From assembly GCF_025165815.1 (NCBI RefSeq), contig NZ_JAFFZE010000006.1:496001-560000 (forward strand): 64,000 nt of DNA. Direction: 5' to 3'. Shown in pieces: positions 1 through 21,548 of the stretch; position 1 is the first letter of the stretch, and the number at the start of each line of letters is the position of its first letter. The stretch is from Actinophytocola gossypii (GTDB lineage: Bacteria; Actinomycetota; Actinomycetes; Mycobacteriales; Pseudonocardiaceae). Made by a program: the position numbers and the translations under genes. The notes beneath the pieces were generated by a model that was not told where the DNA came from, searched no databases, and was given only the letters and a program-made list of their open reading frames with translations.

Positions 1-300
1 GACGTCCGGTTCGACCTCCCGCTCGACGACCACAACCGCGCGCCGGCCGGCGAGCCGGTACGGGGCGAGGTGACCGTCGCCCACCAGCCCGGCTCCCGGG
101 CGTCGCGGATCCGGGACGTGATCGTCGAGGTCTCCTACGACGAGGGCCGCACCTGGCGCCGCGCCACCGTGCACGGCGACCGGGTGGTCGTCCCGGCCGG
201 CGGCGAGCCGGGAGGCTACGCGTCGCTGCGCGCGACCGCCACCGACCGGCACGGCAACGCGGTCACCGAGACCGTGGTCCGGGCCTACGCGCTGCGCTGA
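1..300 (+). CDS. C-terminal end of secreted S8 (subtilisin-like) peptidase, 5' truncated
   Basis: The reading frame is open from base 1 to a TGA at 298-300 and gives 99 residues, so the gene starts left of the window. The residues form a beta-sandwich-like tail with the phrases VEVSYDEGRTW, ASLRATATDRHGNAV and a final VRAYALR. From memory this pattern ends many large secreted actinobacterial subtilases, where it follows the protease domain. The catalytic triad is outside the window, so the protease call rests only on this tail. The stop lies 16 bases inside the 3' end of the convergent methyltransferase gene, which marks the left border of the biosynthetic operon. It is probably not part of the pathway. 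Confidence 0.6.
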   Translation, partial: DVRFDLPLDDHNRAPAGEPVRGEVTVAHQPGSRASRIRDVIVEVSYDEGRTWRRATVHGDRVVVPAGGEPGGYASLRATATDRHGNAVTETVVRAYALR

Positions 301-5640: not shown

Positions 5641-6947
5641 ACCGTCTCCTTCGAGTTCACGGGAGCCACCGCGTCGGGTAGTTCCTCGTCCAGGTTGCGG
5701 AGGCGGGGGCGGGAGTACGCGTGGCCGGCGAGCGCCAGCATCAGCACCCCGACCACCAGGAAGATCAACGCGATGCCCCGGCCGTCACCGGTTCCGATCA
5801 GCGCTCCGACGCTCCCGGCCAGCGCGCCGTCCTCGGCCATCAGCGGCTCGAACACCCCGTCGGACAGCGGCCCGATCGCCAGGTACGCCAACGGCATCGC
5901 CGCCTGGCTGACCATCCGCACCGCGCCGAGCACCCGCCCCAGCACGGCCGGGTCGACCTTCGTCTGGATCAGCGTGATGCACGCCGTGTTCATCAGCGGC
6001 AGCGTGAACAGGAACGCCGGCGCCACCACCGCGATCAGCCACGCCGACGGCCGCAGGCTGTGCAGCACCAGGAACACCCCGCCCAGCACCAACCCCAGGT
6101 ACACCCCGTCGATCCGGCGCTTCGGCCCACCCCACGCGGCCATCACCAGGCTCCCGACGAACAGCCCGCTGCCCCCGGCGGCCATCAGCACCCCGAGCGT
6201 CGCCGGCCCGGAGAACGACAGGATCAGCGGCTGCACCAACCCACCCGCGATCGCGAACAGGAAGTTCCACACCGCGAACACCACGACCAGGTTGAACAAC
6301 CCACGCCGCCCCCGCAGGTACCGCAACCCCGCGGTGAACCCGGCCGGCTCGTCCCCGTCGGCCGGCACCGGGCGGATCACCTCCGCCGGCAGCCGCGCGG
6401 CGAGCAGCGAGCACACCGCGAAAACCATGCCGACCAGGTCGATCAGCAGCACCCCGCGCAGCCCGACCAGCCCGAGCAGCGCCCCCGCCACCAGCGGCGC
6501 CGCGATCTGCACCCCCTGGGTGATCTGCATCAGCCCGTTCACCCGGCCCAGGTGCTTCTTCGGCACCAGCGCCGGCACCAGCGCGGTGAACGCCACCAGG
6601 TGGAACGCGTTGCAGGCCGCCGAGAACGCCGTCGTCAGGTAGATCGGCCACACCGAAAGCGACCCGGTGACGACCAGTGTGAACAGCACCGCGGTCGCCG
6701 CGCCGGCACCCAGGTCGGCGGTCACCATGATCCGCCTGCGGTTCCACCGGTCGGTGATCGTGCCGGCGACCGGCGCGGCCAGGATCCCCGGCAGCACCGC
6801 GCAGAACTGGATCAGCACGAACTGGGTGACCGACCCGGTCTCCAGGTACACCCACACGCCGATGACGAACGCGGACAGCGCGGAGCCGATGACCGACACC
6901 AGCTGCCCGGCCCACACGATCGCGAACTTGCGCATCCGCTCACTCAC
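5637..6947 (-). CDS. MFS transporter (drug-efflux type)
   Basis: This 436-residue integral membrane protein has about twelve hydrophobic segments. The MFS loop between helices 2 and 3 shows [15 protein letters not shown], with the usual G-x3-D-R-x-x-R/K-R-x core. It resembles DHA3-type exporters found beside antibiotic clusters. It sits between two NRPS genes, overlapping the upstream one by 8 bases and the downstream one by 4. It is therefore most simply read as the exporter or self-protection pump for the peptide. Its position in the middle of the assembly-line genes suggests it is made in step with them. Confidence 0.9.
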
Positions 6948-9900
6948 CCAACAACGCCCGGACCTCGTCGTCGGACAGGCCGGCGACGTCCATCCGCAGC
7001 TTCGCGATCGTGGCCACCTGGCCGGGTTCGGCCTGCAGCTCGGCCAGCGTGGCGGCGACGCCCTCGACCGTCGGCGCCGCGAACATCCGGTGGATCGGCA
7101 CGTCGATCGCGAACGCCTCCCGCGTCCTGGCCAGCACCTTCGCCGCGAGCAGCGAGTGCCCGCCGATCCGGAAGAAGTCGTCCCGCACCCCGATCCTGGG
7201 CAGCCCGAGCACCTCCCGCCAGATCCCGGCCAGTACCTCCTCCACCGGATCGCGCGGCGCGACCCACTCCACCTCCGAGGTGAAGTCCGGCGCCGGCAGC
7301 GAACGCCGGTCGACCTTCCCGTTCGCGGTCAGCGGCATCGCGTCGAGCCAGGTGAACGCGGTCGGCACCATGTACTCCGGCAGCCGGTGCCGCAGCCAGG
7401 CTCGCAGCTCCCCGGCGTCCGGAGTGTCCGGTGTGGACGGTACGAGGTGGGCGACCAGCCGGACGTCCTGGCCGGTGCCGTGCGTGCCGACCACGACCTC
7501 CCGGACCCGGGGGTCGGCCAGCAGCGCGGCCTCGATCTCGCCCAGCTCGATCCGGAACCCGCGTACCTTGACCTGCTGGTCGGCGCGCCCGAGGAACTCC
7601 AGCAGCCCGTCCGCGCGGTACCGGGCCAGGTCGCCGGTCGCGTAGAGCCGCGCACCGGGCACGCCGGCGAACGGGTCCGGCCGGAACCGGTCCGCGGTCA
7701 GCCCGGGCCGGCCGTGGTAGCCGCGGGTGACGCCGAGCCCGCCGACGTGCAGCTCACCGACCACGCCGACCGGCACCGGGTCCCCGCGCCCGTCGAGCAC
7801 GTACAGCTGGGTGTTCCCGATCGGCGGCCCGATGTGCACCCCACCCGCACCGACCGGCCCGGCCGCCGACCACACCGTCGTCTCCGTCGGCCCGTACGCG
7901 TTCCACACCACGGCGCCGTCCGCGCGCAGCTCGTCGGCCAGGTCCGGCGGGAACGCCTCACCGCCGCAGATCCGCACCGCCACCCCGTCCGGCACACCGC
8001 CCGCGGTGCCGAGCAGCCGCCAGGTCGCCGGCGTGGCCTGCATGACCGTGGCCCCCGACTCGACCAGCCGCCGGCGCAGCGCCGGCCCGTCCGCGGCCTC
8101 CTCGCTGGTCACGACCACCACCCGCGCGCCGGCGACCAGCGGCACCAGCAGCTCCAGCACCGAGATGTCGAACGACAGCGTGGTGACCGCGGCCAACCGG
8201 TCCGCCGGCTCGATCGCCAGCAGGTCCGCGAACGAGGTCAGCAGGTTCACCACGGCCCGGTGCGGCACCCCCACACCCTTGGGCCGCCCGGTCGAGCCGG
8301 ACGTGTAGATCAGATACGCGAGGTTCTCCCCGTGCACGGCGACCTCCGGTGGGGTCACCGGCTGCTCGGCCAGTCGGGGGTCGTCCGGGCGCAGCACCGG
8401 AACGGTGGTGAACGTGCCGTCGCCGACCACGAGCGACGTGCCGGAGTCGGCGACCATCAGCGCCAGCCGCTCGGCCGGCCACGCGGGGTCGAGCGGCAGG
8501 TACGCCCCGCCCGCCCGCCACACCGCGAGCATCGCCACGACCATCGCGGTGGTGCGGGCCAGGTGCAGGCCGACCGGCACGTCCGGGCCGACCCCGTGCG
8601 CGCGCAGCAGGTGCGCCAGCCGGTTCGCCCGCTCGTCCAGCTCCGCGTACGTCAGTGTTCCGTCCACCCCGGACACCGCGGTCCCGGTGCCGGTGAACGG
8701 GATCAGGTCCAGCGCGGTGGTGGCCGTGGACGGCTCGGTCGCGGTGTCGTTGAACCCGACCACGACCTGCCAGCGCTCCACCCCGGACACCGCGGTCAGC
8801 TCGGACAGCGGCCGGTGCGGGTCGGCGACCGCGGCGCGCAGCAGGTCGAGCAGGCTCGTCGCGAACCGGTCCACGGTCTCGACGTCGAACAGGTCGGTGT
8901 TGTACTCCAGCGACATCAGCAGGCCGCCGTCGTGCTGCTCCAGGATCAGCGACAGGTCCAGTTTGGACACACCGGGATCGGGCAGCAGACCGGTGCAGTC
9001 GACACCCGGCAGCTCGATCTCCAGCCGGGGCACGTTGTGCAGGATCAGCTGCACCTGCGACACCGGCGGGTGGCCGAGGCTGCGTTCCGGCCGCAGCGTC
9101 TCCACCAGCCGCTCGAACGGCACCTCCGCGTTCGACAGGCCGCCGACCGTCACCTCCTTGGCGCGGGCGACCAGCTCGGCGAACGTCGGGTCGCCGCCGG
9201 TGCGCAGCCGCAGCGGCAGCGTGTTGACGAAGAACCCGATCAGCGGCTCCAGGCTCGGGTCCGAGCGGCCGGCGACCGGAGTGCTGACCACCACGTCGTC
9301 CTGCCCGGCGAGCCGCCCGAGCTGCGCGCCGAACGCGGCCAGCAGCGCCATGAACAGGGTGCCGCCGCACTCCCGGGCCATCGCCTCCAGGTCCGCGGCC
9401 AGGCCGGCGCTCAGCGGCACCATGTGCAGCGCGCCCCGGTAGCCCTGCACGGGCGGGCGCGGCCGGTCGGTGGGCAGCGTGAGCAGCTCGGGCGCGCCGT
9501 CCAGGTGGTCGGTCCAGTAGTCCAGCTGACGCGCGACCTCGGGGCCGTGCTGCCGTTCCCGCTGCCAGGTCGTGTAGTCCGGGTACTGGACCGGCAGCTC
9601 CGGCAGCTCCGCTCCGGTCCCGCCCGCCCGGTACAGCGCGGTCAGCTCGTTCAGCAGCACCGACAGCGACCACGCGTCGGACACGATGTGGTGGATGTTG
9701 AACACCAGCACATGGTCGTCCGGCCCGAGCACGCCGAGTGTGGTGCGGAACAGCGGGCCGCGCGCGAGGTCGAACCCGCGCCGCGCCTGCTCCAGCAGGA
9801 ACCGGTCGGCCGCCTCGTCCGCCGGCCCGGACAGCTCGACGACCTCGAACGCGGCCCGCGCGGCCGGCGTCACGACCTGTACCGGCTCGCCGCCCTGGTC

Positions 9901-10161
9901 GGGGAACGTGGTCCGCAGCGACGCGTGCCTGCCCACGATCGTGTCCACACTGGACCGCAGCGCGCCGATGTCCAGCGCGCCGGTGAGCCGGAACGCCATC
10001 GGGATGCTGTAGACCGGTTCACCGGGCGCGAACTTGTCCAGGAACCACAGCCGCTGCTGCCCGAACGACAGCGGGTAGGCCCGGGGCGCGGCCGGTCGGC
10101 GGCGCAGCGCCTCGGCCAACAGCTGCCGCTTCCGGGCGAGTGGCACGTCGTCGAGAGTCAC
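6940..10161 (-). CDS. NRPS module C-A-T, glycine-like adenylation code
   Basis: This is a single C-A-T module of 1073 residues. I place the start at the GTG at 10161, whose GTGA overlaps the TGA of the upstream gene; upstream in-frame starts fall inside that gene. The condensation domain has HHIVSDA at 157-163 (the usual final Gly is Ala). The adenylation domain has IYTSGSTGRPKG, LSFDISVLELL, VMQATPATW, WNAYGPTETTVW and FLGRADQQVKVRGFRIELGE. The hand-read specificity line D-I-L-Q-I-G-A-V-W is close to the known glycine code D-I-L-Q-L-G-x-I-W, so glycine is a reasonable prediction. The carrier domain shows IGGHSL. There is no epimerase, thioesterase or extra tailoring domain. Confidence 0.92.
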   Translation of the reverse strand: MTLDDVPLARKRQLLAEALRRRPAAPRAYPLSFGQQRLWFLDKFAPGEPVYSIPMAFRLTGALDIGALRSSVDTIVGRHASLRTTFPDQGGEPVQVVTPAARAAFEVVELSGPADEAADRFLLEQARRGFDLARGPLFRTTLGVLGPDDHVLVFNIHHIVSDAWSLSVLLNELTALYRAGGTGAELPELPVQYPDYTTWQRERQHGPEVARQLDYWTDHLDGAPELLTLPTDRPRPPVQGYRGALHMVPLSAGLAADLEAMARECGGTLFMALLAAFGAQLGRLAGQDDVVVSTPVAGRSDPSLEPLIGFFVNTLPLRLRTGGDPTFAELVARAKEVTVGGLSNAEVPFERLVETLRPERSLGHPPVSQVQLILHNVPRLEIELPGVDCTGLLPDPGVSKLDLSLILEQHDGGLLMSLEYNTDLFDVETVDRFATSLLDLLRAAVADPHRPLSELTAVSGVERWQVVVGFNDTATEPSTATTALDLIPFTGTGTAVSGVDGTLTYAELDERANRLAHLLRAHGVGPDVPVGLHLARTTAMVVAMLAVWRAGGAYLPLDPAWPAERLALMVADSGTSLVVGDGTFTTVPVLRPDDPRLAEQPVTPPEVAVHGENLAYLIYTSGSTGRPKGVGVPHRAVVNLLTSFADLLAIEPADRLAAVTTLSFDISVLELLVPLVAGARVVVVTSEEAADGPALRRRLVESGATVMQATPATWRLLGTAGGVPDGVAVRICGGEAFPPDLADELRADGAVVWNAYGPTETTVWSAAGPVGAGGVHIGPPIGNTQLYVLDGRGDPVPVGVVGELHVGGLGVTRGYHGRPGLTADRFRPDPFAGVPGARLYATGDLARYRADGLLEFLGRADQQVKVRGFRIELGEIEAALLADPRVREVVVGTHGTGQDVRLVAHLVPSTPDTPDAGELRAWLRHRLPEYMVPTAFTWLDAMPLTANGKVDRRSLPAPDFTSEVEWVAPRDPVEEVLAGIWREVLGLPRIGVRDDFFRIGGHSLLAAKVLARTREAFAIDVPIHRMFAAPTVEGVAATLAELQAEPGQVATIAKLRMDVAGLSDDEVRALLGE

Positions 10162-10835
10162 GGAAGGGCCTTTCCGAGCCGGGAGGACGCCTGGCTCACC
10201 TGGCCGCGCAGGTGCGGCGGCACCCGGTCGCCGAACAGCTGGAGGTACGCGGCGACGTGGTCGTCGTCGAGGGACAGGAACGGGAAGTCGGTGGCCACCA
10301 TGTGCCGGATCGCCAGCAGCGGCACCGGGCTGCGCAGCGGCCGGAACTCGGCGTTCCACAGGCCCGCCTTGTCCGGCGGGCCGTCGTGGAACTCGCCGAT
10401 CATCAGCCCGCGCGCCACGTACGCGGCCTTCAGCAGCCGTTGCGCGGCGTCGATCACCGGCAGGTCGGGGCGGGTCAGCTCGGGGAACAGCACCAGGATC
10501 GTCTTGAACTGCGCGCCCGCCCCGGTGCGCGGCGGCAGGTCGAGGAACCAGTCGCGGTAGTGCGTGACGGTCTCCGCGATCTCCTCCGACCCGGCGGGCT
10601 TGCCGGCGCACACGGCCATGTAGAAGGTGTCGCGGGACAGCGCGCCGTCGGCGAACGGGCAGACGTTGCCCTTGCGGCCCAGCTCGGGGTGCGGCTCGCA
10701 GAGGTACTGGCGCGCCCAGGCGAGGGTGTCATGCAGCGGTTCGGCCCACGGTCGCAGGGCCTCGGGGATCGTGCCGCCGTCGAGGTCGCGCGGCTCGGCG
10801 AGCGGGGGTACGTCGAGGGTCGGATGGGTGATCAT
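10158..10835 (-). CDS. DUF6875-like protein, unknown function
   Basis: This 225-residue protein starts at the ATG at 10835, which overlaps the TGA of the flavoprotein gene (ATGA). It has no signal peptide or membrane segment. Visible conserved-looking stretches are GRKGNVCPFADG (single Cys at about 59), a central QFKTILVLFPEL, and near the end GLMIGEFH followed by NAEFRPLRSPVPLL and ATDFPFL. This pattern matches my memory of the DUF6875 family, which occurs beside or fused to NRPS-pathway enzymes; I could not check it. The Cys in a V-C-P-F setting might bind a metal or haem, but that is a guess. Overlaps on both sides (GTGA with the next NRPS) show it belongs to the pathway. Confidence 0.7.
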   Translation of the reverse strand: MITHPTLDVPPLAEPRDLDGGTIPEALRPWAEPLHDTLAWARQYLCEPHPELGRKGNVCPFADGALSRDTFYMAVCAGKPAGSEEIAETVTHYRDWFLDLPPRTGAGAQFKTILVLFPELTRPDLPVIDAAQRLLKAAYVARGLMIGEFHDGPPDKAGLWNAEFRPLRSPVPLLAIRHMVATDFPFLSLDDDHVAAYLQLFGDRVPPHLRGQVSQASSRLGKALP

Positions 10836-12136
10836 CGACCGGGCACCTGCCTTCTGGATCGGGCGAGCGCGGCGACCACGGTTCCCGCGACCGTCACGGC
10901 CGCCGCGGCGAGCGCGCGGTCCTGCCGGCGGGCCCTCGCCAGCGCGTCGGCGTAGGGCGTCGTGGTGTGCGCGATCATCGTGTAGAGCGGCCGCCAGGTG
11001 TTCGGGAACGCCTTGTGCAGCAGCAGGTCCGCCTTCTTGCGGGCGAGGAACAGCGGGGAGCGCATGCCGTCCCGCAGTTCCAGGAAGTTCTCCTTGGACA
11101 GCGCGGCGAGCACGTCGGTGTGCCGCCGGCGGCGCCGCTCGAACTCGCGCAGCGCGCCGGGGATGTCGTCGTGCTCGGCGAGGCAGGTGTCGAGCACCGA
11201 GCAGTCCTCGAACGCGGCGTTCATGCCCTGGCCGTAGAACGGGTACACCGCGTGCGCGGCGTCGCCGAGGAGCACCACCCGGCCCTCGTGCTGCCAGGGC
11301 GCGGTGCGGATGGTGACCAGGTTCCCGGTCGGGTGGGCCAGGAACTGCTCGACCAGGTCGGGCACCAGCGAGGCCAGGTCGGCGAACTGGGTGGCGAACA
11401 GCCGGCGGACCGCCGACGGCGTGGTCAGCTCGGCGAACGAGTCGTCCCCGTCGAACGGCAGGAACACCGTCGCGGTCAGCGTGCCGTCGTGGTTCGGGTG
11501 CGCGACCACCAGCCCGGCCCGGCCCGGCCACAGGTGCAGCGCCTCCAACCGGGTGTCGGGGTTCGCCGGGACGGTGATCTCCTTGTAGCCCCAGTCCATG
11601 AACTCCTGGTGCAGTTCGGCGCGGGTGCCCCGGTGCAGGAGCGTGCGCACGGTCGAGAACGCGCCGTCCGCGCCGAGCACCAGGTCGGCCTTCAGCTCGT
11701 GGGTAAACTGTCCGTCGTGGACGGTCAACACCGGCAGCGACCGGTCGAGTGCGACCACCTTGTGCTCGAAGTCGAACCGGACGCCGTCGGCCTCGGCGCG
11801 GCCGATCAGCGCGGCGTTCAGGTCGTCCCGCAGGATCGAGTGCAGGATCTCGTCGTCGGCGGTGCCGTACGGGTGGAACGAGGTGCCGGCGTCGGTGTGC
11901 ACCATCCGGCCGCGCATCGGCGTGGTCCTGCCCCACAGCTCGTCCAGCAGCCCGACCTCGCGCAGCGCCGTGATGCCGCGCTGGGACAGTCCGAGGTTGA
12001 TCGACCGCCCGTCCGGGGTGGACGTACGCGGGTCGGGCCGGCGCTCGACCACCCGGACCTCGTGCCCCCGCCCGGCGAGGTACACCGCCGCCAGCGACCC
12101 GGCGAGGCCGGCGCCGGCGATGACGATGTGGCTCAC
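10832..12136 (-). CDS. Kynurenine 3-monooxygenase-like FAD hydroxylase
   Basis: This 434-residue group A flavoprotein monooxygenase has the FAD-binding GAGLAG (about 7-12), the kynurenine-monooxygenase signature RSINLGLSQRG (about 46-56) and a second FAD motif LLGDAAHAVYPFYGQGMN (about 290). The RSINL stretch separates kynurenine 3-monooxygenases from the wider PHBH group. The last 30 residues include a weak hydrophobic stretch, reminiscent of the C-terminal anchor of mitochondrial KMO. The expected reaction is NADPH- and O2-dependent ortho-hydroxylation of kynurenine or a related aryl amine. In this operon it probably makes or decorates a 3-hydroxykynurenine-like residue. It starts with GTG, overlapping the NRPS stop by GTGA. 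No dedicated kynurenine supply genes are visible. Confidence 0.85.
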   Translation of the reverse strand: MSHIVIAGAGLAGSLAAVYLAGRGHEVRVVERRPDPRTSTPDGRSINLGLSQRGITALREVGLLDELWGRTTPMRGRMVHTDAGTSFHPYGTADDEILHSILRDDLNAALIGRAEADGVRFDFEHKVVALDRSLPVLTVHDGQFTHELKADLVLGADGAFSTVRTLLHRGTRAELHQEFMDWGYKEITVPANPDTRLEALHLWPGRAGLVVAHPNHDGTLTATVFLPFDGDDSFAELTTPSAVRRLFATQFADLASLVPDLVEQFLAHPTGNLVTIRTAPWQHEGRVVLLGDAAHAVYPFYGQGMNAAFEDCSVLDTCLAEHDDIPGALREFERRRRRHTDVLAALSKENFLELRDGMRSPLFLARKKADLLLHKAFPNTWRPLYTMIAHTTTPYADALARARRQDRALAAAAVTVAGTVVAALARSRRQVPGR

Positions 12137-15100
12137 AGCTCACCGTCCTCGATCAGGGTGGTGAGCAGGCGGTCCACCTCGGCGTCGGACAGCTCGTCGA
12201 GCTGGTCGAGCAGGGTGCGGGGGCCGTCGGCGCGGCCCGTGCGGCCGGCGGCGACCGACTCGGCGAGCCCGGCGATCGTCGGCGCGGTGAACAGCGCGGC
12301 CAGCGGCAGGTCGACCGCCATCCCGCCGCGGATGCGGGCGATCAGCTGGGTCGCGGTCAGCGAGTGCCCGCCGAGCGCGAAGAAGTCGTCGTGCACGCCG
12401 AGCGGGGTGTCCGGGCCAAGGCTGAGCACCTCGCGCCAGATCGTGGCCAGCCGGCGCTCGGTGTCGGTACGCGGCGCCACGGTGTGCGTGCGCTCCCTGG
12501 TCCACACCGGTTCCGGCAGCGCCGCCCGGTCGACCTTGCCGGTCGGCGTGGTCGGCAGTGCGTCGAGCATCACGTACCGGCTCGGGTGCATGTAGTCCGG
12601 CAGCCGCCGCGCCAGCCACGGCCGCAGCTCCGCGGTGCCGACCCGCCGGCGCGGCACCAGGTAGGCGACCAGCCGCACGTCCGCGTCCCCGGCCGACCAC
12701 GTGGTCACCACCGCGTCCCGCACCGAGTCGTGCGCCCGCAGCGCCGCCTCGACCTCGCCCAGCTCGATCCGGAACCCGCGTACCTTCACCTGGTGGTCGG
12801 CCCGGCCGAGGAACTCCAGCCCGCCACCGCGCCGGCGCACCAGGTCGCCGGTGGCGTAGAGCCGCGCGCCCGGGGTGGCGCTGAACGGGTCGGGCCGGAA
12901 CTTCTCGGCGGTCAGCGCCGGCAGGTTCCGGTAGCCGCGGGCAACGCCGGCGCCGCCGATGTGCAGCTCGCCGATCACCCCGTCCGGTACCTGCGCCAGG
13001 TTCGGGTCGAGCACGTGCAGCGTGCTGCCGCCCACCGCCGGGCCGAGCCGGATCGGGTACGGCGCCGGGGGAACGCGGCCGGCGGCGGAGTACACCGTGG
13101 TCTCGGTCGGCCCGTACCCGTCGATCAGCACCGCGTCGTCGGCGAGCAGCGCGTCGGCCAGGTCGCGGGTCAGCGCCTCGCCGCCGGTCACCCGCAGCCG
13201 CACCCCGGCCGGCACCCCACCGGCTGCGACGATCATCCGCCACGCGGACGGCGTGCCCTGCACGACGGTCGCGTCGGTGATCCGTTCCCGCAGCCGGTGC
13301 CCGTCGGCGACCTCGTCGGCCGCGACGAACGTCACCGACGCCCCGCGCAGCAGCGGCGCGAACATCTCCACCACCGACACGTCGAACGACGGCGTGGTGA
13401 TCGACGCCAGCCGGTCGGCGGGGGAGAGGTCCAGCAGCTCGTCCATCGCGCCCAGCAGGTTCGCCACCCCGCCCCTGGTCACCGCGACGCCCTTGGGCCG
13501 CCCGGTGGAGCCGGAGGTGTAGAGCAGGTACGCCAGCGCCGTCGGCGGCACCTCGACCTCCGGCGGCGTGTCCGGTTGTGCGGACAGGTCCACGGTGTCC
13601 AGGTCGATCACGGTCCAGTCACCGGGCAGCTCGACCGCCGCGGCGGCGTGCGTGACCAGCACCGGGGCGCCGGCGTCGCTGGCCATCGTGGTCAGCCGGT
13701 CCACCGGCCAGGACGGGTCGAGTGGCAGGTACCCGCCGCCCGCGCGCCAGGTGGCGAGCACGGCCAGCGGCACCCGCGTACCCCTGGCCAGGCACAGCGC
13801 GACCGGCACGTCCTGGCCGACCCCGTTGGCGCGCAGCAGGTGCGCGAGCCGGTTCGCCTCCGCGTCGAGCTCGGCGTAGGTGCGGGTGCCGTCCGGGCCG
13901 GCCACCGCGGGCGCGTCGCCGAACCGGCGCAGGTCCACCTGGATCGCGCCGCCCGGCCGCACCGCGGTGACCGGCGGGGTCGCGGTGGTCAGCGGCAGCT
14001 CGGCGACCGGCCGGTCCCGGCCGGTCCGCGCCGCGCGCAACGCCACCGCGTAGATCTCGGCGAAGCCGGCCACGGTGGCCTCGTCGAACAGGTCGGTGTC
14101 GTAGTTCCACCTGGCCCGCCACCGGTCGGCACCCGGCTCGACGGTCAGGAACAGGTCGAACTTCGAGCCGCCGTTGCCCAGCAGCTCCGGTGCGAACGTC
14201 ACCCCGTCCACCGTGGCGGGAGCGGGTTTCGGCTCGACCGAGAACATCGTCTGCACCAGCGGCGCGTGCGCCATGCTGCGCTGCGGCGCGAGCAGGTCGA
14301 CCAACTGCTCGAACGGCAGCTCCTGGTGCGCCAGCGCGTCCTCGACCGCACCCTGGGTGGCGTCGGCGAGCTGGGCGAACGTGGTCTCCGGCGTGATCCG
14401 GGCTGGCAGCGCGAGCGTGTTGGCCAGGAACCCGACCAGGTGCTCGGTCTCCGGCCGGGTGCGTGCGGACACCGGGGTGGCGACCAGGAACTCGGCCTGC
14501 CCGGACAGCCGGTGCAGCACCGCCTGGAACACCGCGAGCAGCTCCCCGAACGACGCGCCGGGCGCCGGTTCCAGGTCGGTCACCAGCTCCGCGCCTCGGC
14601 CGCGGGCGGCGGTGTGCGGGCGGTCGGTCGGCAGCGGCAGCACGGTCGGGATGCCGGCCAGCGCCTCGGTCCAGTACCGGGCGGCGCCGGCGAAGCTGTT
14701 GGCCTCGGCCTGCTCCCGTTGCCACACCGCGTAGTCCGGGTACTGCAGCGGCGGCTCGGGCAGCGGCGTGCGGCCGTAGCAGCGAGCCAGCTCGTCGAAC
14801 AGGATCGCGCACGACCAGCCGTCCACGACCGCGTGGTGCACCACCAGGATCAGCTCGTGCGCCTCGGCGGAGTGCCGTACCAGCCCGGCGCGCAGCAGCG
14901 GACCGCCGGCCAGGTCGAACGGCTCCCGCACCAGAGCGTCCACTTCGGACGGCTCGATGGCGACCAGCGGCACGTGCGTACGCGGCGTCACCACCTGCGT
15001 CGGCACCCCGTCGGTGGCGGCGAACGTGGTGCGCAACGCCTCGTGCCTGCCGACGACCGCGCGCAGTGCCTCGGTGAGCCGCCCGGGGTCCAGCGGCCCG

Positions 15101-15204
15101 GTCAGCGTCACCCGCCAGCCAAGGTTGTAGGCCGGACTGCCCGGGATGAGCTGGTCCAGCAGCCACAGCCGACGCTGCCCGGACGAGGTGGGGAAGACGA
15201 ACAC
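12133..15204 (-). CDS. NRPS module C-A-T
   Basis: This is a single 1023-residue C-A-T module. The GTG start at 15204 shares its last base with the TAG stop of the small peptide gene (TAGTG). It has a strong GGGGAGG ribosome site at 15212-15218, seven bases away. The condensation domain begins almost at residue 1 and has a canonical HHAVVDG at 123-129. The adenylation domain shows LYTSGSTGRPKG, PSFDVSVVEMF, VVQGTPSAW, DGYGPTETTVY and the usual ATGDL and KVRGFRIELGE motifs. The hand-read specificity line is D-V-V-Q-V-G-G-V-Y, with no confident substrate. The carrier domain has LGGHSL, and about 45 residues follow it. No epimerase is present. Confidence 0.92.
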   Translation of the reverse strand: MFVFPTSSGQRRLWLLDQLIPGSPAYNLGWRVTLTGPLDPGRLTEALRAVVGRHEALRTTFAATDGVPTQVVTPRTHVPLVAIEPSEVDALVREPFDLAGGPLLRAGLVRHSAEAHELILVVHHAVVDGWSCAILFDELARCYGRTPLPEPPLQYPDYAVWQREQAEANSFAGAARYWTEALAGIPTVLPLPTDRPHTAARGRGAELVTDLEPAPGASFGELLAVFQAVLHRLSGQAEFLVATPVSARTRPETEHLVGFLANTLALPARITPETTFAQLADATQGAVEDALAHQELPFEQLVDLLAPQRSMAHAPLVQTMFSVEPKPAPATVDGVTFAPELLGNGGSKFDLFLTVEPGADRWRARWNYDTDLFDEATVAGFAEIYAVALRAARTGRDRPVAELPLTTATPPVTAVRPGGAIQVDLRRFGDAPAVAGPDGTRTYAELDAEANRLAHLLRANGVGQDVPVALCLARGTRVPLAVLATWRAGGGYLPLDPSWPVDRLTTMASDAGAPVLVTHAAAAVELPGDWTVIDLDTVDLSAQPDTPPEVEVPPTALAYLLYTSGSTGRPKGVAVTRGGVANLLGAMDELLDLSPADRLASITTPSFDVSVVEMFAPLLRGASVTFVAADEVADGHRLRERITDATVVQGTPSAWRMIVAAGGVPAGVRLRVTGGEALTRDLADALLADDAVLIDGYGPTETTVYSAAGRVPPAPYPIRLGPAVGGSTLHVLDPNLAQVPDGVIGELHIGGAGVARGYRNLPALTAEKFRPDPFSATPGARLYATGDLVRRRGGGLEFLGRADHQVKVRGFRIELGEVEAALRAHDSVRDAVVTTWSAGDADVRLVAYLVPRRRVGTAELRPWLARRLPDYMHPSRYVMLDALPTTPTGKVDRAALPEPVWTRERTHTVAPRTDTERRLATIWREVLSLGPDTPLGVHDDFFALGGHSLTATQLIARIRGGMAVDLPLAALFTAPTIAGLAESVAAGRTGRADGPRTLLDQLDELSDAEVDRLLTTLIEDGEL

Positions 15205-15338
15205 TAGACCGCCTCCCCGAATTCTTCCCTGTTGGTCGCCTGGGGGAGCTTGGGTTCGGCCTGGTCACGTACTTGTGGCTGGGTCGCGTCACGTTCCCCT
15301 GAGGTGGCGGTTTCGGACGTTGACCGGAGGTGTCTCAC
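15204..15338 (-). CDS. 44-residue hidden peptide, candidate precursor or scaffold for the LanB-like domain
   Basis: A 44-codon gene fills the apparent gap between the NRPS-LanB and the second NRPS. Its GTG (15336-15338) overlaps the TGA of the fusion gene as GTGA, and a GGAAGG ribosome site lies six bases upstream at 15345-15350. Its TAG shares a base with the GTG of the next gene. The peptide is hydrophilic, has no Cys, and has Ser/Thr at positions 6, 7, 8, 10, 12, 13, 19 and 35. It is rich in Glu, Gln and Arg and ends Gly-Glu-Ala-Val. Thirteen of 44 codons end in A or T, unlike the flanking genes. I recognise no family. Placement beside a LanB-like domain suggests a RiPP precursor or a PEARL-type scaffold. 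It could instead be only a coupling or docking peptide. Confidence 0.65.
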   Translation of the reverse strand: MRHLRSTSETATSGERDATQPQVRDQAEPKLPQATNREEFGEAV

Positions 15339-18300
15339 GACTGTCCTTCCAAAGGGTTCACGCCACGCCGGTCGACCGCGACCAGGCGGAGCTCCGCGGT
15401 GTATCTGGCGCCGGCGGCGTCGGTCAGCCACAGCTCGTCCGGGCCGGGCAGCATCTCGCCGACGGTCAGCACGCCGCCCGGCTCCTCGCGGTCCATCGCG
15501 CGGACCGCGCGGCCGAGCAGCTCGACCGACGGCAGGCTCGCCAGGTCGACGAAGAACGGCTTGAGCTCCACCGGGCTCTTGACGAACAGGAACCGGGGCA
15601 TGCCGTGCGTCTCGCGCCACGCCTGCGCCAGCCGGAACCGGGCCGGCTCGTCGGCGGCGAACGCGAACGCCAGGCTCTCGACGGGAAGCCGCCAGGTCTC
15701 GCGGCTGACCACGAGCCGGTCGATCGACACCCTCGGCGTGTGCGGCGCGGTCGGCATGATCTTGAACTGCTGCACCAGCTGGCCCATCAGCTGCTCGTTC
15801 AGCAGCTCCACCAGGTCCATCCGGTGCCCGCCGTCCCGGTCGTGCACCACCAGCCGGCCGTCCACCTCGGACACCAGCAGGTCGGCGACGAGCAGCGCGC
15901 CGGCCAGGTCCGGGCCGCACGCGTCGTGCGCGGACACCACCCGCAGGTCGCGCGGCTGCACCAGCGCGTCGGACAGCCGCTGCGGGGTGCCGCCCTCTTC
16001 GCGGGTCGCGGCCAGCACGATCCTCGGTCCGCCGAGGTCGTGGACCATGCCGGCGTGCAGCTGCGCCGCGTCCGGGTGCTGGGAGACGAACAACGCCGAC
16101 CGCATGGTGTTCACCCCGGCGTGCAGCTCGCCGAGCACCCACGTGACGTCCCCGGCCCGCGCGGCGGCGGCGTCCTTCGCGGCGACCAGCACGTCCGGGC
16201 TGTGCTGCACGGCGCTGCGCCACCCGGGCCGGCGCGCGGCGAACGCGGCGCTCACCTGGTCCCGCACGGCGTCCGCGGTGAACGTGACCGCGCGCGCGTC
16301 CCGGTCGATGTCGAGGATGCCGGCCCACCGCTCCTGCAGCGCACCGGTCAGCCTGCCGACCACCCGCTGGTCGAGCCGGAAGATCACGTCGTTGGCCCAC
16401 AGCCAGAAGTCCGCGAACCGCAGCGTCGACGCACCCGTCGCGGTGGCGCGCTCCCGGTGGATGTCGCGCAGCGCCCGCCGGTACAGCGCCGCACCGGCGG
16501 AGGTGAACCAGCGCGCGCTCTCCAGCAGCAGGGTCAGCGGCGGCCACAGCGTGGCCAGCACGTCCGGCCCGATCGTCACCTCGGTGTCGCGGCGGCACTC
16601 CTCGTGCACCAGCGTGCGGCCGGCGTAGAACTGGCCGGGCCTGCGGACCGCGGCGGCACCGGTGTGCCGGGTGAACGCCTCCTGCAGCGCGGCGATCCCG
16701 GCGGTGAGCCGGTCCGGGTCGCCGGTCGCGGCGGCCACCGCGCGCCGGCCGGCCTCGACCTCGTCCAGCGCGGCCAGCGCCGGCTCGCGGGCGTCGTCGT
16801 CGGTGATCGCCGCCAGCTGCCGGCGCAGCGCGTCCTGCGGCACCAGCTCGGCCGGGGACACCTCGAACGCCCAGGCGATCCTCCGCTCGTCCCGCAGTTT
16901 CCGCAACGCCCCGTACACGTCCACGCCGGGCAGTTCGGCCGCGATCTCGTGCGCGGTGCGCCGCCCGTCGACCGCGCGGAGCACGGCGGCCTCGTCGGGG
17001 TCGAGCGCGAGCGGGCTGCGCAGCGGAACGTGCAGCAGGTCGCCCTCGATCCCGACGAACGGCATCCGGCGCGGCACCGCCCACGGCAGCCGGTCCTCTG
17101 TGGACAACGCGCCGGCGAGCGCGTGCACCGCCCAGTTCTCCAGGTACACCGTGCGGTTGGCGAGCAGCCCTGGCCCGGGCCGCTGGTCGATGCCGGTCGC
17201 GTCGTCGACCACCCGCGCCCAGCCGACCGGGCCGAAGAAGCCGATCGTGTCGTTCTTCGTGGCGTAGCGCTGCAGGTAGCTGGTGACCAGCGCCTCCCAC
17301 TGCCGGTACTGCGAGTTGCGCGCCGGGTCGCCCGCCGCGCGGCGCAGCGAGTCGACGGCGGTGTGCAGGGCGCGCGGGTTCTGCCAGCCGACCGCCTCCC
17401 GGAACCGCGGGTCGTCCGCAGCGTCCCGCAGGGCGGCGGCGAGCGGGCCGGTGGCGGCGGCGAACGCCTCGGCGTAGCGCGCCTGGGCGGCGGCGAGCCG
17501 GTCGGCGGCGGCACGGACGTCGTCGACGTCCGCGCGGTCCGACAGCTCGGCAGACAGCTCGTCCAGCCGGCCCTTGCAGATCATCTTCGAGTCGCGCCGC
17601 AGCCGCGGCTTGTCCTCGGCCGGCGCGACGGTCAGCGCCGCCTTGATCCAGTCGAGCACGACGCCGCGGATCGCGTAGAACTCCCGCTCCAGCCGGTTGA
17701 CCTCGGCCGCGGCGGCCGCGACGGCCGGGGAGGCGATGCGCAGCAGCGGGTCGACGCCGAACCCGGTGCCGCGCAGCTCCACCCACCGCCACAGCGCCCA
17801 GTTCCGGTCCAGCGCCACCTGGTGCGGCGGCACGCTCGGCGCCTCCCGGTACGCCGACCGGTCCCGCCGCACGATCGCCACCTTCGGCGGGGTCGGTGAA
17901 GCGGACAGGGTGCCGACCACCTCGGTCAGCTCCGCGAGCCGGCGTGTCCGGTAGACCTCGCGGATCGGCAGCTCCACGCCGAACGCCTCGCGCACCCGGA
18001 ACGTCAACCGCATGGCGGACAACGAGTTGCCGCCGAGGTCGAAGAAGTCGTCGGCCGAGCCGATGCCGTCCGCGCCGAGCAGCGCCCGCCACACGTCGGC
18101 CATCCGCCGCTGCGGCTCGGTGGTCAGCGGCGCGTGCTCCCGGTCCCCGGACGCGGCGGGCGGCGCGGGCAGCGCGCGCCGGTCGATCTTGCCGGACGCG
18201 TTGAGCGGCAGCTTCGCCAGCGGCACGTACCCGGCGGGCCGCAGGTAGTCGGGCAGCCGCTCGGCGACGGCGGCCCGCACCGCGTCGAGGTCCACGTCGG

Positions 18301-20944
18301 CCGGGGTGAGGTAGGCGACCAGGCGCCGGTTCTCCCCGCTGCCCTGGACGACCACCGCCGCGTCGCCGACGGCCGGGAGTTCGCGCAGCACCGACTCCGG
18401 CTCACCCGGCTCCACCAGGTAGCCGCGCAGCTTGACCTGGTTGTCGCCGCGCCCGAGGAACTCGAGCACCCCGTCGGTGCGCCAGCGGGCCCGGTCGCCG
18501 GTCCGGTAGAGCCGCGAACCGGGCGGCCCGAACGGGTCCGGCACGAACCGCTCGGCGGTCAGCGCCGGCCGGTTCAGGTAGCCGCGGGCCAGGCCGGCGC
18601 CGCCGGTGTACAGCTCGCCGGGCGCGCCGGTGGGCACCGGACGCAGGTCGGCGTCGAGCACGTGCACGGTGGTCTGCTGCACCGGCCGGCCGATCGGGGT
18701 GGTCGTGGTGGCCTCGGCGGGGTCGGTCATGGTGTGGCAGCTGGTGAACGTGGTGTTCTCGGTCGGCCCGTACCCGTTGGTCACCGGCCGCCCGCCCCGG
18801 GCTTCGAGCGCGGCCCGGACCGCCGCCGGGGCGAGCACGTCGCCGCCGGCGAGCAGCTGGTCCACCTCGGCCAGCGTCGCCGGGTCGTGCTCGACGAGCT
18901 GGTGGAACAGCCCGGCGGTCAGCCACAGCAGGCTCACCCGGTGCTCCCGGACCAGCCGGGCCAGCTCGGTGGCCTCCAGCGGTCCTGGCGGCGCGCACAC
19001 CACGCGGGCGCCGGTGAGCAGCGCACCCCACAGCTCCAGCGTGGTCAGGTCGAACGACGTCGCCGACGCGTGCAGGAACGTCTGGCCGGGGCCGACGGTG
19101 GCGAAGTTCGGCTCGTGCACCAGCCGCACCACACCCCGGTGCGGCACCGCGACGCCCTTCGGCTTGCCGGTGGAGCCGGAGGTGTAGTTGACGTACGCGA
19201 TCGTCTCGGCCGTCGCCGGACACGGCCCGGGCGGCGCGTCCGGCAGGCCCACCGGGTCGATCGTCTCGACCGGACCCTCGGTCCCCCGGTCGGCGAGGAC
19301 GAACCGCGCACCGCAGTCCGCGAGCATGGCCGCCGTGCGGGCCGGCGGGTTGGCCGGATCGAGCGGCAGGTACGCGCCGCCCGCCTTCAGCACACCGAGG
19401 AACGCCGCCACCAGCTCCGCGCCGCGGGGGAGCGCGACGCCGACCGGCTCCTCGACGCGCAGGCCGCGGTCCCGCAGCGCGTGTGCGACCCGGTCCGCGC
19501 GCCGGTCCAGCTCCGCGTAGCTCCACCACCCGTCGCCGGCCAGCACCGCCGGCGCGGTCGGGTCGCGGCGGACCTGGGCGGCGAACAGGCCGGGCACGGT
19601 GGCGGTGCGCGGGTAGGCGCCCGGCGCGCCGCTCCAGCCGGCCAGCCGCTCCCGCTCACCCGGGGCGAGCAGCTCCAGCTCCCGCACGGTCCGGTCCTGG
19701 CTCGTGGCCAGCGCGACGAGCGCGGCCCGCAGGTGTCCGGCGAGCGTGTCGGCCTCGGCGCGCGGGTAGCGGTCGTGGATGATCGACAGCGCCAGCCGGG
19801 GCTCGGCGAAGGCGTAGACGGTGAGCGGGTAGCAGAGCCTGCGGTGCATGGTGACCGTGCGCTCCTGCCACTGCGGGTTGTGCTGGCGCAGCACGGTGTG
19901 CAGGTCCTGGCGCTCGAACAGCACGAGGCTGTTCAGCAGCCGCACGTCCGACGGGGTGCCGGCGTGCCGCTGGATCCCGGCGAGCGGCGCCAGCTGGTGG
20001 TCCCGCACCCCGAGCGCGCGCCGGCGCAGCTCACCCAGCCAGTCCAGGACCGTCCGTCCACTGTCGACCCGCACCCGCAGCGGCACGGTGGCGAGCAGCA
20101 TCCCGACCATGTCGTTCGCGCCAGGCACCGACCCGTGCCGGACCGAGCGGGTGACGCCGAAGACCACGTCGTCGGTGCCCGCGTGCGCGGCGAGCACCAG
20201 TGCCCAGGCCGCGTGCACGATCGTGTTCAGCGTGACGCCCGCGTCGTCGGCGACCCGGCGCAGGGCCGCGGTCTCGGCGTCGTCGAGGGTGAAGGAGACC
20301 ACCGGGTCGGCCGGGCGCTCGTCGTCGACCCGGCCGAACGGCAGCGGGGTCGGCCCGGACAGGCCGTCGAGGTGGTCGCGCCAGAACGCGGTCTCCCGTT
20401 CCTCGGCGTCCCGCCCGCTGAGCCACTCGACGAAGTCCGCGTACCTCGGCCGTTCCGGCGGTTCGCCGAGCCCCCGGTAGTCGTCGTCGACCTCGGCCAG
20501 CAGCATCGCCAGCGACCGCCCGTCCAGCACGGCGTGGTGCAGCGTGACCACGATCGTCTCGCCGCCGAGCACGGTGACCCGCACCAGCGGCGGCCGGTCG
20601 AACGCGAACCCCCGCTCCCGGTCGGCCGCGAGAAAGCCGTCCAGGCGCTCGTCCCGGACGGTGAAGTCCAACTCGACGTCGGCGTGCACCACCTGGGCGA
20701 GGTCGCCATCCAGCCGGAAGCCGGTCCGCAGGATCGGATGCCGCTCCACCGCGCGCACCCAGGCGTTCCGGTAGGCGGCGACGTCCAGGCCAGGCCAGCG
20801 CACGACGCACTGCACGATGTCGATGCCCGCGCCGGGCGCGCGCAGCCCGTTGAAGAGCATGCCCTGTTGCAACGGCAACGCCGGATACACCTCCGGCGCC
20901 GCCGCCGGCGCTGTTTTCGGGCGCACATGACCTCCAACGCGCAT
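15335..20944 (-). CDS. NRPS C-A-T fused to a LanB-like (lantibiotic dehydratase N-domain / PEARL-like) protein
   Basis: This 1869-residue hybrid has a condensation domain (about 18-440, HHAVLDG at 136-142), an adenylation domain (about 450-935; YTSGSTGKPKG near 590, TSFDLTTLEL near 630, NGYGPTENTTF near 725, hand-read line D-L-L-W-L-G-G-T-F) and a carrier domain (LGGNSL near 970). From about 1030 to the end, some 840 residues match the lantibiotic dehydratase glutamylation domain, including KNDTIGFFGPVGWARV (1230-1245) and an alpha-helical CKGRLDEL region. No elimination (SpaB C-type) domain follows, so it resembles stand-alone tRNA-dependent LanB relatives such as PEARLs rather than a full dehydratase. 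The reported ATG lacks a good ribosome site. The GTG at 20926 has GGAGG four bases upstream and may be the true start. Confidence 0.9.
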   Translation of the reverse strand: MRVGGHVRPKTAPAAAPEVYPALPLQQGMLFNGLRAPGAGIDIVQCVVRWPGLDVAAYRNAWVRAVERHPILRTGFRLDGDLAQVVHADVELDFTVRDERLDGFLAADRERGFAFDRPPLVRVTVLGGETIVVTLHHAVLDGRSLAMLLAEVDDDYRGLGEPPERPRYADFVEWLSGRDAEERETAFWRDHLDGLSGPTPLPFGRVDDERPADPVVSFTLDDAETAALRRVADDAGVTLNTIVHAAWALVLAAHAGTDDVVFGVTRSVRHGSVPGANDMVGMLLATVPLRVRVDSGRTVLDWLGELRRRALGVRDHQLAPLAGIQRHAGTPSDVRLLNSLVLFERQDLHTVLRQHNPQWQERTVTMHRRLCYPLTVYAFAEPRLALSIIHDRYPRAEADTLAGHLRAALVALATSQDRTVRELELLAPGERERLAGWSGAPGAYPRTATVPGLFAAQVRRDPTAPAVLAGDGWWSYAELDRRADRVAHALRDRGLRVEEPVGVALPRGAELVAAFLGVLKAGGAYLPLDPANPPARTAAMLADCGARFVLADRGTEGPVETIDPVGLPDAPPGPCPATAETIAYVNYTSGSTGKPKGVAVPHRGVVRLVHEPNFATVGPGQTFLHASATSFDLTTLELWGALLTGARVVCAPPGPLEATELARLVREHRVSLLWLTAGLFHQLVEHDPATLAEVDQLLAGGDVLAPAAVRAALEARGGRPVTNGYGPTENTTFTSCHTMTDPAEATTTTPIGRPVQQTTVHVLDADLRPVPTGAPGELYTGGAGLARGYLNRPALTAERFVPDPFGPPGSRLYRTGDRARWRTDGVLEFLGRGDNQVKLRGYLVEPGEPESVLRELPAVGDAAVVVQGSGENRRLVAYLTPADVDLDAVRAAVAERLPDYLRPAGYVPLAKLPLNASGKIDRRALPAPPAASGDREHAPLTTEPQRRMADVWRALLGADGIGSADDFFDLGGNSLSAMRLTFRVREAFGVELPIREVYRTRRLAELTEVVGTLSASPTPPKVAIVRRDRSAYREAPSVPPHQVALDRNWALWRWVELRGTGFGVDPLLRIASPAVAAAAAEVNRLEREFYAIRGVVLDWIKAALTVAPAEDKPRLRRDSKMICKGRLDELSAELSDRADVDDVRAAADRLAAAQARYAEAFAAATGPLAAALRDAADDPRFREAVGWQNPRALHTAVDSLRRAAGDPARNSQYRQWEALVTSYLQRYATKNDTIGFFGPVGWARVVDDATGIDQRPGPGLLANRTVYLENWAVHALAGALSTEDRLPWAVPRRMPFVGIEGDLLHVPLRSPLALDPDEAAVLRAVDGRRTAHEIAAELPGVDVYGALRKLRDERRIAWAFEVSPAELVPQDALRRQLAAITDDDAREPALAALDEVEAGRRAVAAATGDPDRLTAGIAALQEAFTRHTGAAAVRRPGQFYAGRTLVHEECRRDTEVTIGPDVLATLWPPLTLLLESARWFTSAGAALYRRALRDIHRERATATGASTLRFADFWLWANDVIFRLDQRVVGRLTGALQERWAGILDIDRDARAVTFTADAVRDQVSAAFAARRPGWRSAVQHSPDVLVAAKDAAAARAGDVTWVLGELHAGVNTMRSALFVSQHPDAAQLHAGMVHDLGGPRIVLAATREEGGTPQRLSDALVQPRDLRVVSAHDACGPDLAGALLVADLLVSEVDGRLVVHDRDGGHRMDLVELLNEQLMGQLVQQFKIMPTAPHTPRVSIDRLVVSRETWRLPVESLAFAFAADEPARFRLAQAWRETHGMPRFLFVKSPVELKPFFVDLASLPSVELLGRAVRAMDREEPGGVLTVGEMLPGPDELWLTDAAGARYTAELRLVAVDRRGVNPLEGQS

Positions 20945-21001: not shown

Positions 21002-21202
21002 TCAGCCGGCGAGATGTTCCCGGACGCTGCGCGGCCGCATGTCGGTCCACACCTCGTCGATGTGCGCCAGGCAGACCGAGCGTTCACCCTCGGTGCCCTC
21101 GAGACGCCAACCAGCGGGAAGTTGCTGGCCCGCCAACCAGATCGAGTACTGCTCCTCGTCGTTGACCACGACCTGGTACCGCCGGTCGTCACCCGTGCTC
21201 AT
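21002..21202 (-). CDS. mbtH: MbtH-like NRPS accessory protein
   Basis: This protein of 66 residues is the first gene of the operon. It carries the MbtH signature almost intact: N-x-E-x-Q-x-S-x-W, then LPAGWRLEG, RSVCLAHID and VWTDMRPRS. The usual Trp-Pro is Trp-Leu here. MbtH proteins bind the A-core of adenylation domains and are often needed for their folding or activity, so at least one of the four A domains here probably depends on it. I start at the ATG at 21202; an earlier in-frame start at 21226 adds eight residues outside the family. The gap of 57 bases to the NRPS-LanB gene is the only intergenic space in the operon. Confidence 0.93.
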   Translation of the reverse strand: MSTGDDRRYQVVVNDEEQYSIWLAGQQLPAGWRLEGTEGERSVCLAHIDEVWTDMRPRSVREHLAG

Positions 21203-21548
21203 GAACCCACGCCTTTCCCTGCGCACTGTACGGCGTGGACGCTACAGAAACGGTGAGTGCGGCGAATCGCCCGAACGGACTCATGCGAAACGCGATTTCG
21301 GAAGTGGTGTCACAATACGAGAGCAGCCGAGTACGAAACGCAAATGTCAGTGTGCATACCCGTCGGAATGTTTCCCGTTTGCATTCGCGTCGAATACCCT
21401 GAACGGCACTCGCGCCGTTGGTCCGATCGATGAAATGTGCCGTGCGGGGTTAGTCCATCCAGTCGAACGTGAGAAGACTTCGCGTCTTCTTCCTAGGCCG
21501 ACCGCCCCAACGCCGACGGCCTGAACCGATCCAGTTCGGACCGGCTCC
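21203..21548. other. Intergenic region upstream of the biosynthetic operon (probable promoter)
   Basis: These 346 bases separate the DUF3140 gene from mbtH, both on the minus strand. They are clearly less GC-rich than the genes and hold no coding sequence I can support. The operon promoter must lie here, toward 21210-21350 on the minus strand. A TACAGT near 21223-21228 could be a -10 box, but I see no convincing -35 partner. A stem-loop at 21472-21490, listed separately, probably ends the DUF3140 transcript. Confidence 0.5.
21472..21490 (-). terminator. Short stem-loop downstream of DUF3140 gene
   Basis: Arms AGAAGAC (21472-21478) and GTCTTCT (21484-21490) are perfect complements with a five-base TTCGC loop. 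It lies about 60 bases past the DUF3140 stop and before the mbtH promoter region. There is no clear U-tract, so it may only be a weak terminator or mRNA 3' stabiliser. Confidence 0.45.

Follow-up and report, generated by a model that had tools for sequence, protein, structure and literature searches.

Within a 64,000-nucleotide stretch of the Actinophytocola gossypii genome (contig NZ_JAFFZE010000006.1 of RefSeq assembly GCF_025165815.1, positions 496,001 to 560,000; hereafter the window), the gene that we call NRPS1 encodes a non-ribosomal peptide synthetase (NRPS) module of condensation (C), adenylation (A) and carrier (T) domains that is continued in the same chain by a domain related to LanB enzymes. 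We propose, with a probability of roughly one in two, that NRPS1 is a chain-initiating module with its own amide ligase of the PEARL (peptide-aminoacyl-tRNA ligase) type. The LanB half is better read as PEARL-like, with ATP predicted to activate a carboxylate and aminoacyl-tRNA to supply the amine, than as a domain for glutamylation and dehydration, because the ATP-binding residues are present in all 61 aligned family members and lacking in 30 canonical LanBs. PEARL-like chemistry on an NRPS-made chain, whether on the assembly line or off it, is probable; the bolder form of the proposal, in which the chain grows on the line in two directions, has somewhat less than even odds. The gene and its domains are as follows.

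15335..20944, minus strand: NRPS1, a C-A-T-LanB/PEARL fusion of 1869 amino acids (open reading frame list, Pfam, recurring architecture)
19643..20893, minus strand: condensation domain, residues 18-434, motif LHHAVLDGRS (Pfam, motif, tree, PDB relatives)
18188..19585, minus strand: adenylation domain, residues 454-919, code DLLWLGGTFK (Pfam, specificity code)
17918..18103, minus strand: carrier (T) domain, residues 948-1009, pantetheine Ser974 in LGGNSLS (Pfam)
15338..17821, minus strand: LanB glutamylation-type/PEARL-like domain, about residues 1042-1869 (profile, AlphaFold2, residue comparison)

The NRPS1 frame begins with ATG and is uninterrupted by stops, and Pfam finds along it, in order, Condensation (18-434), AMP-binding (454-790) with its C-terminal part (850-919), PP-binding (948-1009) and Lant_dehydr_N (PF04738), the last in two stretches of which the better, at 1178-1474, scores 73.7 bits against a cut-off of 28. 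The LanB half starts at about residue 1042, roughly 30 residues past the carrier domain, and extends to the C terminus. An earlier reading made from the letters of the DNA (the sequence-only reading) had described one chain at 15335-20944 with C-A-T followed by a LanB N-domain that lacks the elimination domain, and the frame and the Pfam matches, among which the elimination domain PF14028 was not found in NRPS1, bear this out; the stretch KNDTIGFFGPVGW, which it placed near residue 1230, begins exactly there. Elsewhere in the same genome PF14028 is confined to contigs C16 and C8, with none on the window's contig, C28. The structure prediction that the same reading had called for as a check was run on residues 1002-1869. 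The AlphaFold2 model, built on a 15-sequence alignment (A1), has a mean predicted local distance difference test score of 86.2 and a predicted template modelling score of 0.86, and all 11 PDB matches found with Foldseek at E<=1e-3 are LanB-type (TbtB, GodF, MibB, MadB and NisB), the best being TbtB at 5.5e-25. A profile search of the LanB half against the PDB likewise returned TbtB (7e-12); phmmer gave no PDB match at E<=1, and neither NCBIfam nor PHROGs has a family for this half. At about residues 1300-1356 (window about 16877-17047) the LanB half has a winged-helix stretch that gave weak A1-profile matches to structures of the helix-turn-helix/PqqD type (9w4v, E 0.0011; 5sxy, E 0.0039), a leader-binding-type element in a protein that has no conserved leader peptide.

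In the paper on BhaBCTrp (PMC11962472), the ATP side of the active site comprises D558, E575, E813 and R815, the side of the tRNA CCA end comprises R197, Q201, Y205, R208 and R429, and R34 lies near the substrate carboxylate. The window domain has ATP-type residues D1584 (in SPD), E1606 (in GEL), and E1851 and R1853 (in AELR), CCA-type residues Y1223 and R1226 (in YLQR) and R1443, and R1058; compared with the BhaBCTrp residues, they occur in the same order, with gaps that agree within 12 residues and with exact E-x-R and Y-xx-R spacing. R1738 is also noted. We followed these positions through a 61-row alignment of the window and 60 rows from other loci, limited to LanB frames whose match to the A1 profile begins before position 40 and ends after position 770, with one row kept for each identical 100-residue stretch; at least two genes are still present twice (L013/L014 and L044/L068; numbers with L, G and C are our handles for loci, genomes and contigs). 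Fifteen of the 21 columns inspected are invariant, twelve of them being R1058, Y1223, R1226, R1434, R1443, D1584, E1606, H1608, R1738, E1830, E1851 and R1853, so that the main CCA-side residues Y1223, R1226 and R1443 are retained in 61 of 61 rows.

The canonical control consisted of 30 loci from the PF04738 search, each represented by its longest frame and joined by profile alignment (hhalign probability 98.3%; one row is gapped at some of the compared columns). In these LanBs, D1584 is replaced by A, C, R, G, I or S, E1606 by G, S, P or A, E1851 by V, L, A, I or T, and R1853 by P in 30 of 30, whereas Y1223 and R1226 are kept in 29 of 30 (with one gap), R1443 in 17, R1738 in 27 and E1830 in 29. 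The ATP-type set separates the window family from canonical LanBs and the CCA-type set does not, and therefore the CCA contacts are not PEARL-specific. Classical glutamylation, in which Glu from Glu-tRNA would be placed on a Ser or Thr hydroxyl of the chain to be dehydrated later, would account for the PF04738 membership and for Y1223 and R1226, which are common to canonical LanBs. It is very unlikely all the same: the four ATP-type residues are PEARL-like and not LanB-like, there is no elimination domain in NRPS1 or on its contig, and the A codes do not look Ser/Thr-like by known specificity codes. We dropped it on these grounds, and with it the label of glutamylation protein given in the sequence-only reading. 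Of the two marks of a class I LanB dehydratase, an elimination domain (sought with Pfam) and a precursor peptide (for which a 44-residue frame was examined), neither was found. The features found are those of a PEARL in the broad sense, namely the LanB glutamylation-domain fold without PF14028 in the protein or on its own contig, the D, E and E-x-R residues, and Y-xx-R with a distal R.

The architecture is not confined to the window. A protein scan of GTDB contigs gave 12 loci, 10 in Saccharothrix, one in Salinispora pacifica CNR114 and one in Micromonospora echinofusca, and C, A, T and LanB share one frame in 10 of the 12 (L015-L020, L022, L023, L025 and L026); the two exceptions are L024, cut within C by the contig end, and L021, split over two overlapping frames. 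Five further loci have C-A-T-LanB in one frame (L066, L067, L068, L071 and L074), a count from which L075, of the same architecture as L015, was left out as its duplicate. Because the one-frame architecture recurs in other loci, the fusion is not due to chance. In the 61-row tree, the 22 rows labelled as fused form a single clade with support of 100 (they include L041, an A-T-LanB cut by the contig end, and L044 and L068, which are the same gene), and its neighbour is the stand-alone LanB of L045/L072 (96). Genomes with a relative of the LanB half number 10 of 296 drawn from the class, 60 of 397 from the order and 5 of 6 of the genus, the window's own genome being included in each count, and the 14 rows aligned with the window's LanB half are 25-61% identical to it. 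Gene neighbourhoods were checked for the part of the 61 rows examined in larger regions; among these, no C, A or T match lies within the LanB frame outside the fused clade, and nearly all of the non-fused genes are near NRPS genes.

Other LanB-like genes were seen along the way. A different NRPS cluster of the window's own genome contains a second one, stand-alone and NRPS-linked (L036, about 9234-11660 on contig C16, 38% identity), and the genome also has a PF04738 match adjoining a separate PF14028 frame (contig C16, 153714-155547) that looks like the split LanB of a cluster for a ribosomally synthesized and post-translationally modified peptide (RiPP). Its locus L035, a different and split LanB type, has no NRPS match nearby. 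In L077, L078 and L082, from the same order or family, two tandem LanB-like genes are flanked by an A-T gene on one side and an A-T-C-T gene on the other.

The substrate end that a PEARL requires is a carboxylate, but in a growing NRPS chain that end is a thioester; the source of the carboxylate is therefore at issue. In the threopeptin pathway of Stackebrandtia nassauensis, according to Yu and van der Donk (2024, PMC11212132), a ureido-forming C domain with the motif EHHxxHDG reverses the chain, and the addition of Thr to the carboxylate so exposed needs SnaE. The window's C domain does not have this signature and reads LHHAVLDG, so we rejected ureido formation by it. One relative, L069 (8244-15659 on contig C4 of G496), has A-T-C-A-T-LanB in one frame of 2472 amino acids with EHHFVHDG in its C domain, a domain order that matches SnaA (A-T-Curea-A-T, as described in that paper) plus SnaE in a single chain. 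In the same genome, contig C23 ends in a C-A of the HHxxLDG type and contig C118 in an A-T-LanB. Neither the window protein nor any of the other fused relatives whose front end is complete has the loading A-T, and their C domains belong to the HHxxLDG type. HHxxLDG C domains form a single clade of 11 rows (100/100), one of which (L066) reads LDA, and which includes the C domain of a separate C-A-T adjoining, on the opposite strand, the stand-alone LanB of the sister locus L072. The A codes behind both types of C domain are alike, DAWWLGGTFK in L069 and D[A/L/T]LWLGGTFK in the others (DALWLGGTFK in several relatives, DLLWLGGTFK in the window). Two unlike C units thus occupy one position, each followed by a similar A domain and a PEARL domain of the same kind, and the comparison suggests that both leave a free carboxylate, which the PEARL domain would extend backwards. 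All A codes were read against a reference segment of GrsA, and we tentatively take the NRPS1 code to be Val-like. The NRPS1 C domain scores best in the PDB against McyB (199 bits) and PvdL (184 bits); against the same two, NRPS2 reaches 57 and 117 bits and NRPS4 79 and 80 bits, both being further synthetases of the same cluster, which has these other members.

21002..21226, minus strand: MbtH-like protein (Pfam)
12133..15204, minus strand: NRPS2, C-A-T, code DVVQVGGVYK (Pfam, code)
10832..12136, minus strand: FAD monooxygenase, best NCBIfam match VioC (family search)
10158..10835, minus strand: DUF6875 protein (PF21780, 230.6 bits), start approximate (Pfam)
6940..10158, minus strand: NRPS3, C-A-T, code DILQIGAVWK, start about 10158 (Pfam, code)
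5637..6947, minus strand: MFS transporter (family search)
1300..5640, minus strand: NRPS4, C-A-T-thioester reductase, code DAGDMGHVCK (Pfam, TIGR01746)
285..1319, minus strand: O-methyltransferase (family search)

All the genes lie on the minus strand in this order, with NRPS1 between MbtH and NRPS2, and the next gene downstream of the O-methyltransferase, for a subtilase-like protein, is outside the cluster set. A longer NRPS3 frame, upstream of about 10158, would overlap DUF6875. The reductase part of NRPS4 scores 252.5 bits with TIGR01746 (cut-off 213.35), and a tRNA-Pro called by ARAGORN at 1436-1524 on the minus strand was taken as probably false because it lies inside the NRPS4 coding frame. 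The NRPS3 A code is presumably Gly-like, and we take the flavoenzyme to be similar to kynurenine-3-monooxygenase. Pfam confirms DUF6875 in the window and L015, and BLAST does so in G631, G578 and G657; PMC13307353 describes the family as heme proteins that oxidise Trp. Its pair with the flavoenzyme (window 10158-12136) is retained in those Saccharothrix and Micromonosporaceae relatives that were checked and is likely a Trp oxidation unit. Saccharothrix-type loci have the same gene order as far as their DNA reaches (L015, L017, L020, L026, G657 and G578). In the Micromonosporaceae branch (L023, L024 and G631) NRPS3 and NRPS4 have no MFS gene between them; G631 carries it after NRPS4 and has MbtH on the opposite strand. 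The relatives of family code f47 (L066, L116 and L121 of G345, and L067 of G351) have no flavoenzyme, DUF6875 or reductase in the DNA examined, and these functions are therefore specific to one branch of the fused clade.

The ends of the synthetases bear on the order of the modules. NRPS2 and NRPS3 have LSDxEVxxLL-like tails, and NRPS3 and NRPS4 begin with KRQLLA- or REKLLA-like helices, whereas the starts of NRPS1 and NRPS2 carry neither kind of helix. Read as docking elements, these ends suggest the module order NRPS1-2-3-4, in which NRPS1 would come first. Since the end of NRPS1 and the start of NRPS2 have no recognisable docking elements, the LanB-like domain could itself be the interface, as a catalytically dead docking or structural platform. 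This is hardly credible for a domain in which twelve catalytic-type residues are kept in 61 of 61 rows despite 25-61% identity in the 14 rows aligned.

Our proposal for NRPS1 as an initiating module with an amide ligase would then work as follows. The A domain would charge the T domain at Ser974 with a small aliphatic, perhaps Val-like, amino acid, whose amine the special C domain would cap with a unit that keeps a carboxylate free at the front; in L069 an A-T with a predicted ureido-forming C domain takes that place, and the window probably uses another carboxylate-bearing starter. The fused LanB-like domain, whose residue set is that of a PEARL, would phosphorylate the front carboxylate with ATP for attack by an aminoacyl-tRNA, as PEARLs and SnaE lead us to expect, adding one residue opposite to the direction of NRPS growth, probably with the chain on the adjacent T domain, after which the tRNA would be hydrolysed off. 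The thioester end would pass through NRPS2, NRPS3 and NRPS4 to reductive release as an aldehyde or alcohol, and DUF6875, the flavoenzyme and the O-methyltransferase would, going by their families, decorate an aromatic, probably Trp-derived, residue. The full picture of a bidirectional module, with the T-held chain going forward by its thioester end and backward by tRNA-fed extension of its carboxylate end, to whose making a C domain of the HHxxLDG clade, exchangeable for A-T-Curea, would be dedicated, is tentative. The aminoacyl-tRNA might instead act as an acyl donor to the free amine of the T-bound residue, in the manner of PacB in pacidamycin biosynthesis, which we take to transfer onto a T-bound chain. 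The T-bound amino acid does offer an amine, and PacB adds Ala to a growing NRPS chain according to a review (PMC12945691); its fold is nevertheless GNAT-type and not LanB, the ATP-type residues would be needless, and a C domain is already present for the amine, which leaves this route quite unlikely.

Several observations speak against the proposed initiating module. The PEARL mapping rests on residue numbers and spacing from PMC11962472 and not on an alignment to the BhaB, TglB or SnaE sequences, and Q201 and R197 of BhaBCTrp, as given there, have no identical counterpart in the window domain. Some invariance among the 61 rows is expected because they were gathered by similarity to the window domain, for which the canonical set served as control. 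Among the loci compared only L069 and L028 carry EHHxxHDG, so urea-based chain reversal is not general here, and a gene that would visibly form or activate a dicarboxylic starter is missing from the cluster. A search of 397 genomes with the window's C domain gave 15 matches at E<=1e-60, 7 in LanB loci, 1 cut by a contig end (contig C23 of G496), 6 in long NRPSs and 1 in G654. The long NRPSs hold the C domains that come closest to the clade without belonging to it, and in 6 of 6 an epimerase-like region, called by its E motif, precedes the domain. This context speaks for a D-donor and not a starter type; a starter-type assignment from the McyB and PvdL neighbours is therefore not claimed. The G654 domain is of the HHxxLDG type but has no LanB in its vicinity and so breaks the pairing of the two. 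It lies in a 613-residue frame after MbtH (L140, 8839-10677), with a cut-short A domain, and is possibly a decayed version. NRPS3 of the relative L066 lacks the N-terminal helix used in the argument on module order. SnaE, finally, may act on free compounds, and PMC11212132 leaves open whether it works on or off the line.

That last point favours an off-line course, in which the fused domain would amidate a free acid, either the product after its release or some other, and being fused would only fix stoichiometry, as does the finding that the LanB-like genes examined in larger regions outside the fused clade are separate from C, A and T. In the window and five fused relatives (L015, L023, L024, L066 and L069), however, the fusion directly follows a T domain with an intact Ser, and one clade spanning three family codes keeps it; we consider the off-line course unlikely.

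The sequence-only reading had also named a short peptide as a possible substrate, modified with the help of the NRPS.

15204..15338, minus strand: 44-residue frame with a GTG start, overlapping the NRPS1 stop and the NRPS2 start (open reading frame list)

Its GTG overlaps the stop of NRPS1 and its TAG the start of NRPS2. In 14 of 14 relatives the gap between NRPS1 and NRPS2 is 8-35 nucleotides, which leaves no room for such a frame, and the peptide had no match among the loci searched except the window's own copy (L001). The frame is best seen as a window-specific leftover, and both the 44-residue carrier peptide and its NRPS-fed modification were dropped. A conserved scaffold peptide, which marks the PEARLs of RiPP pathways, was thus not found for the 44-residue frame in 14 of 14 relatives, other small frames not having been surveyed. 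Of the sequence-only reading, then, the LanB relationship, the PEARL-like character and the tRNA-fed chemistry on an NRPS line stand, the last as the best reading of a reaction that remains conditional; the glutamylation label and the 44-residue substrate do not.

Among known systems, SnaE is the closest: as described in PMC11212132, it is LanB-like and of the PEARL type, belongs to an NRPS cluster that includes MbtH, and adds an amino acid against the NRPS direction; no conserved precursor peptide was found in the window as far as the 44-residue frame goes. SnaE is a separate gene, in contrast, whereas the window protein has C-A-T-PEARL in one chain, without the loading A-T and EHHxxHDG of the SnaA/SnaE system and with reductase release and Trp-type tailoring in place of threopeptin's polyketide synthase. 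RiPP PEARLs (BhaBCTrp, BhaBCAla, TglB and AmmB) share the fold family, the ATP-type and main CCA-side residues and the lack of an elimination domain, but extend a ribosomal scaffold peptide, of which the 44-residue frame gives no conserved example. The N-domains of class I LanBs (NisB, MibB, TbtB and GodF) share the fold, PF04738 and the CCA-side residues, but glutamylate Ser/Thr, have an elimination domain with or beside them and, in the 30 canonical rows, carry other residues at the four ATP-type positions. Ureido-forming modules (SnaA, and SylC, presumably a C-A-T) resemble NRPS1 as first modules that leave a free carboxylate, tentatively also in the Val-like A code, and differ in having EHHxxHDG where the window has LHHAVLDG.

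Earlier publications already cover NRPS PEARLs that stand alone (SnaE, threopeptin) and note that LanBs fused to thiolation domains exist. What is new is the complete C-A-T-PEARL architecture, together with the clade and the cluster it belongs to and the exchange of C domains. In the open-licence PMC literature (titles and the starts of abstracts), no further paper on such fusions was found apart from the preprint PMC10769383, and the terms NRPS, fused and SnaE are absent from the examined passages of the review PMC12945691. The compound family looks unexplored, because no paper linking Saccharothrix with NRPS and lantibiotic dehydratase was found in the open-licence literature. With the PEARL domain welded to a T domain, the question of on-carrier versus off-carrier action posed by SnaE becomes testable on one protein, and the HHxxLDG clade of C domains may predict reverse-extended products. 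If the proposal is true, ribosomal (tRNA) and non-ribosomal amino-acid supply meet in one enzyme, a naturally fused protein that could be used to build peptides both ways, and the same protein, with an assembly-line module and a tRNA-borrowing domain, may grow its product in two directions.

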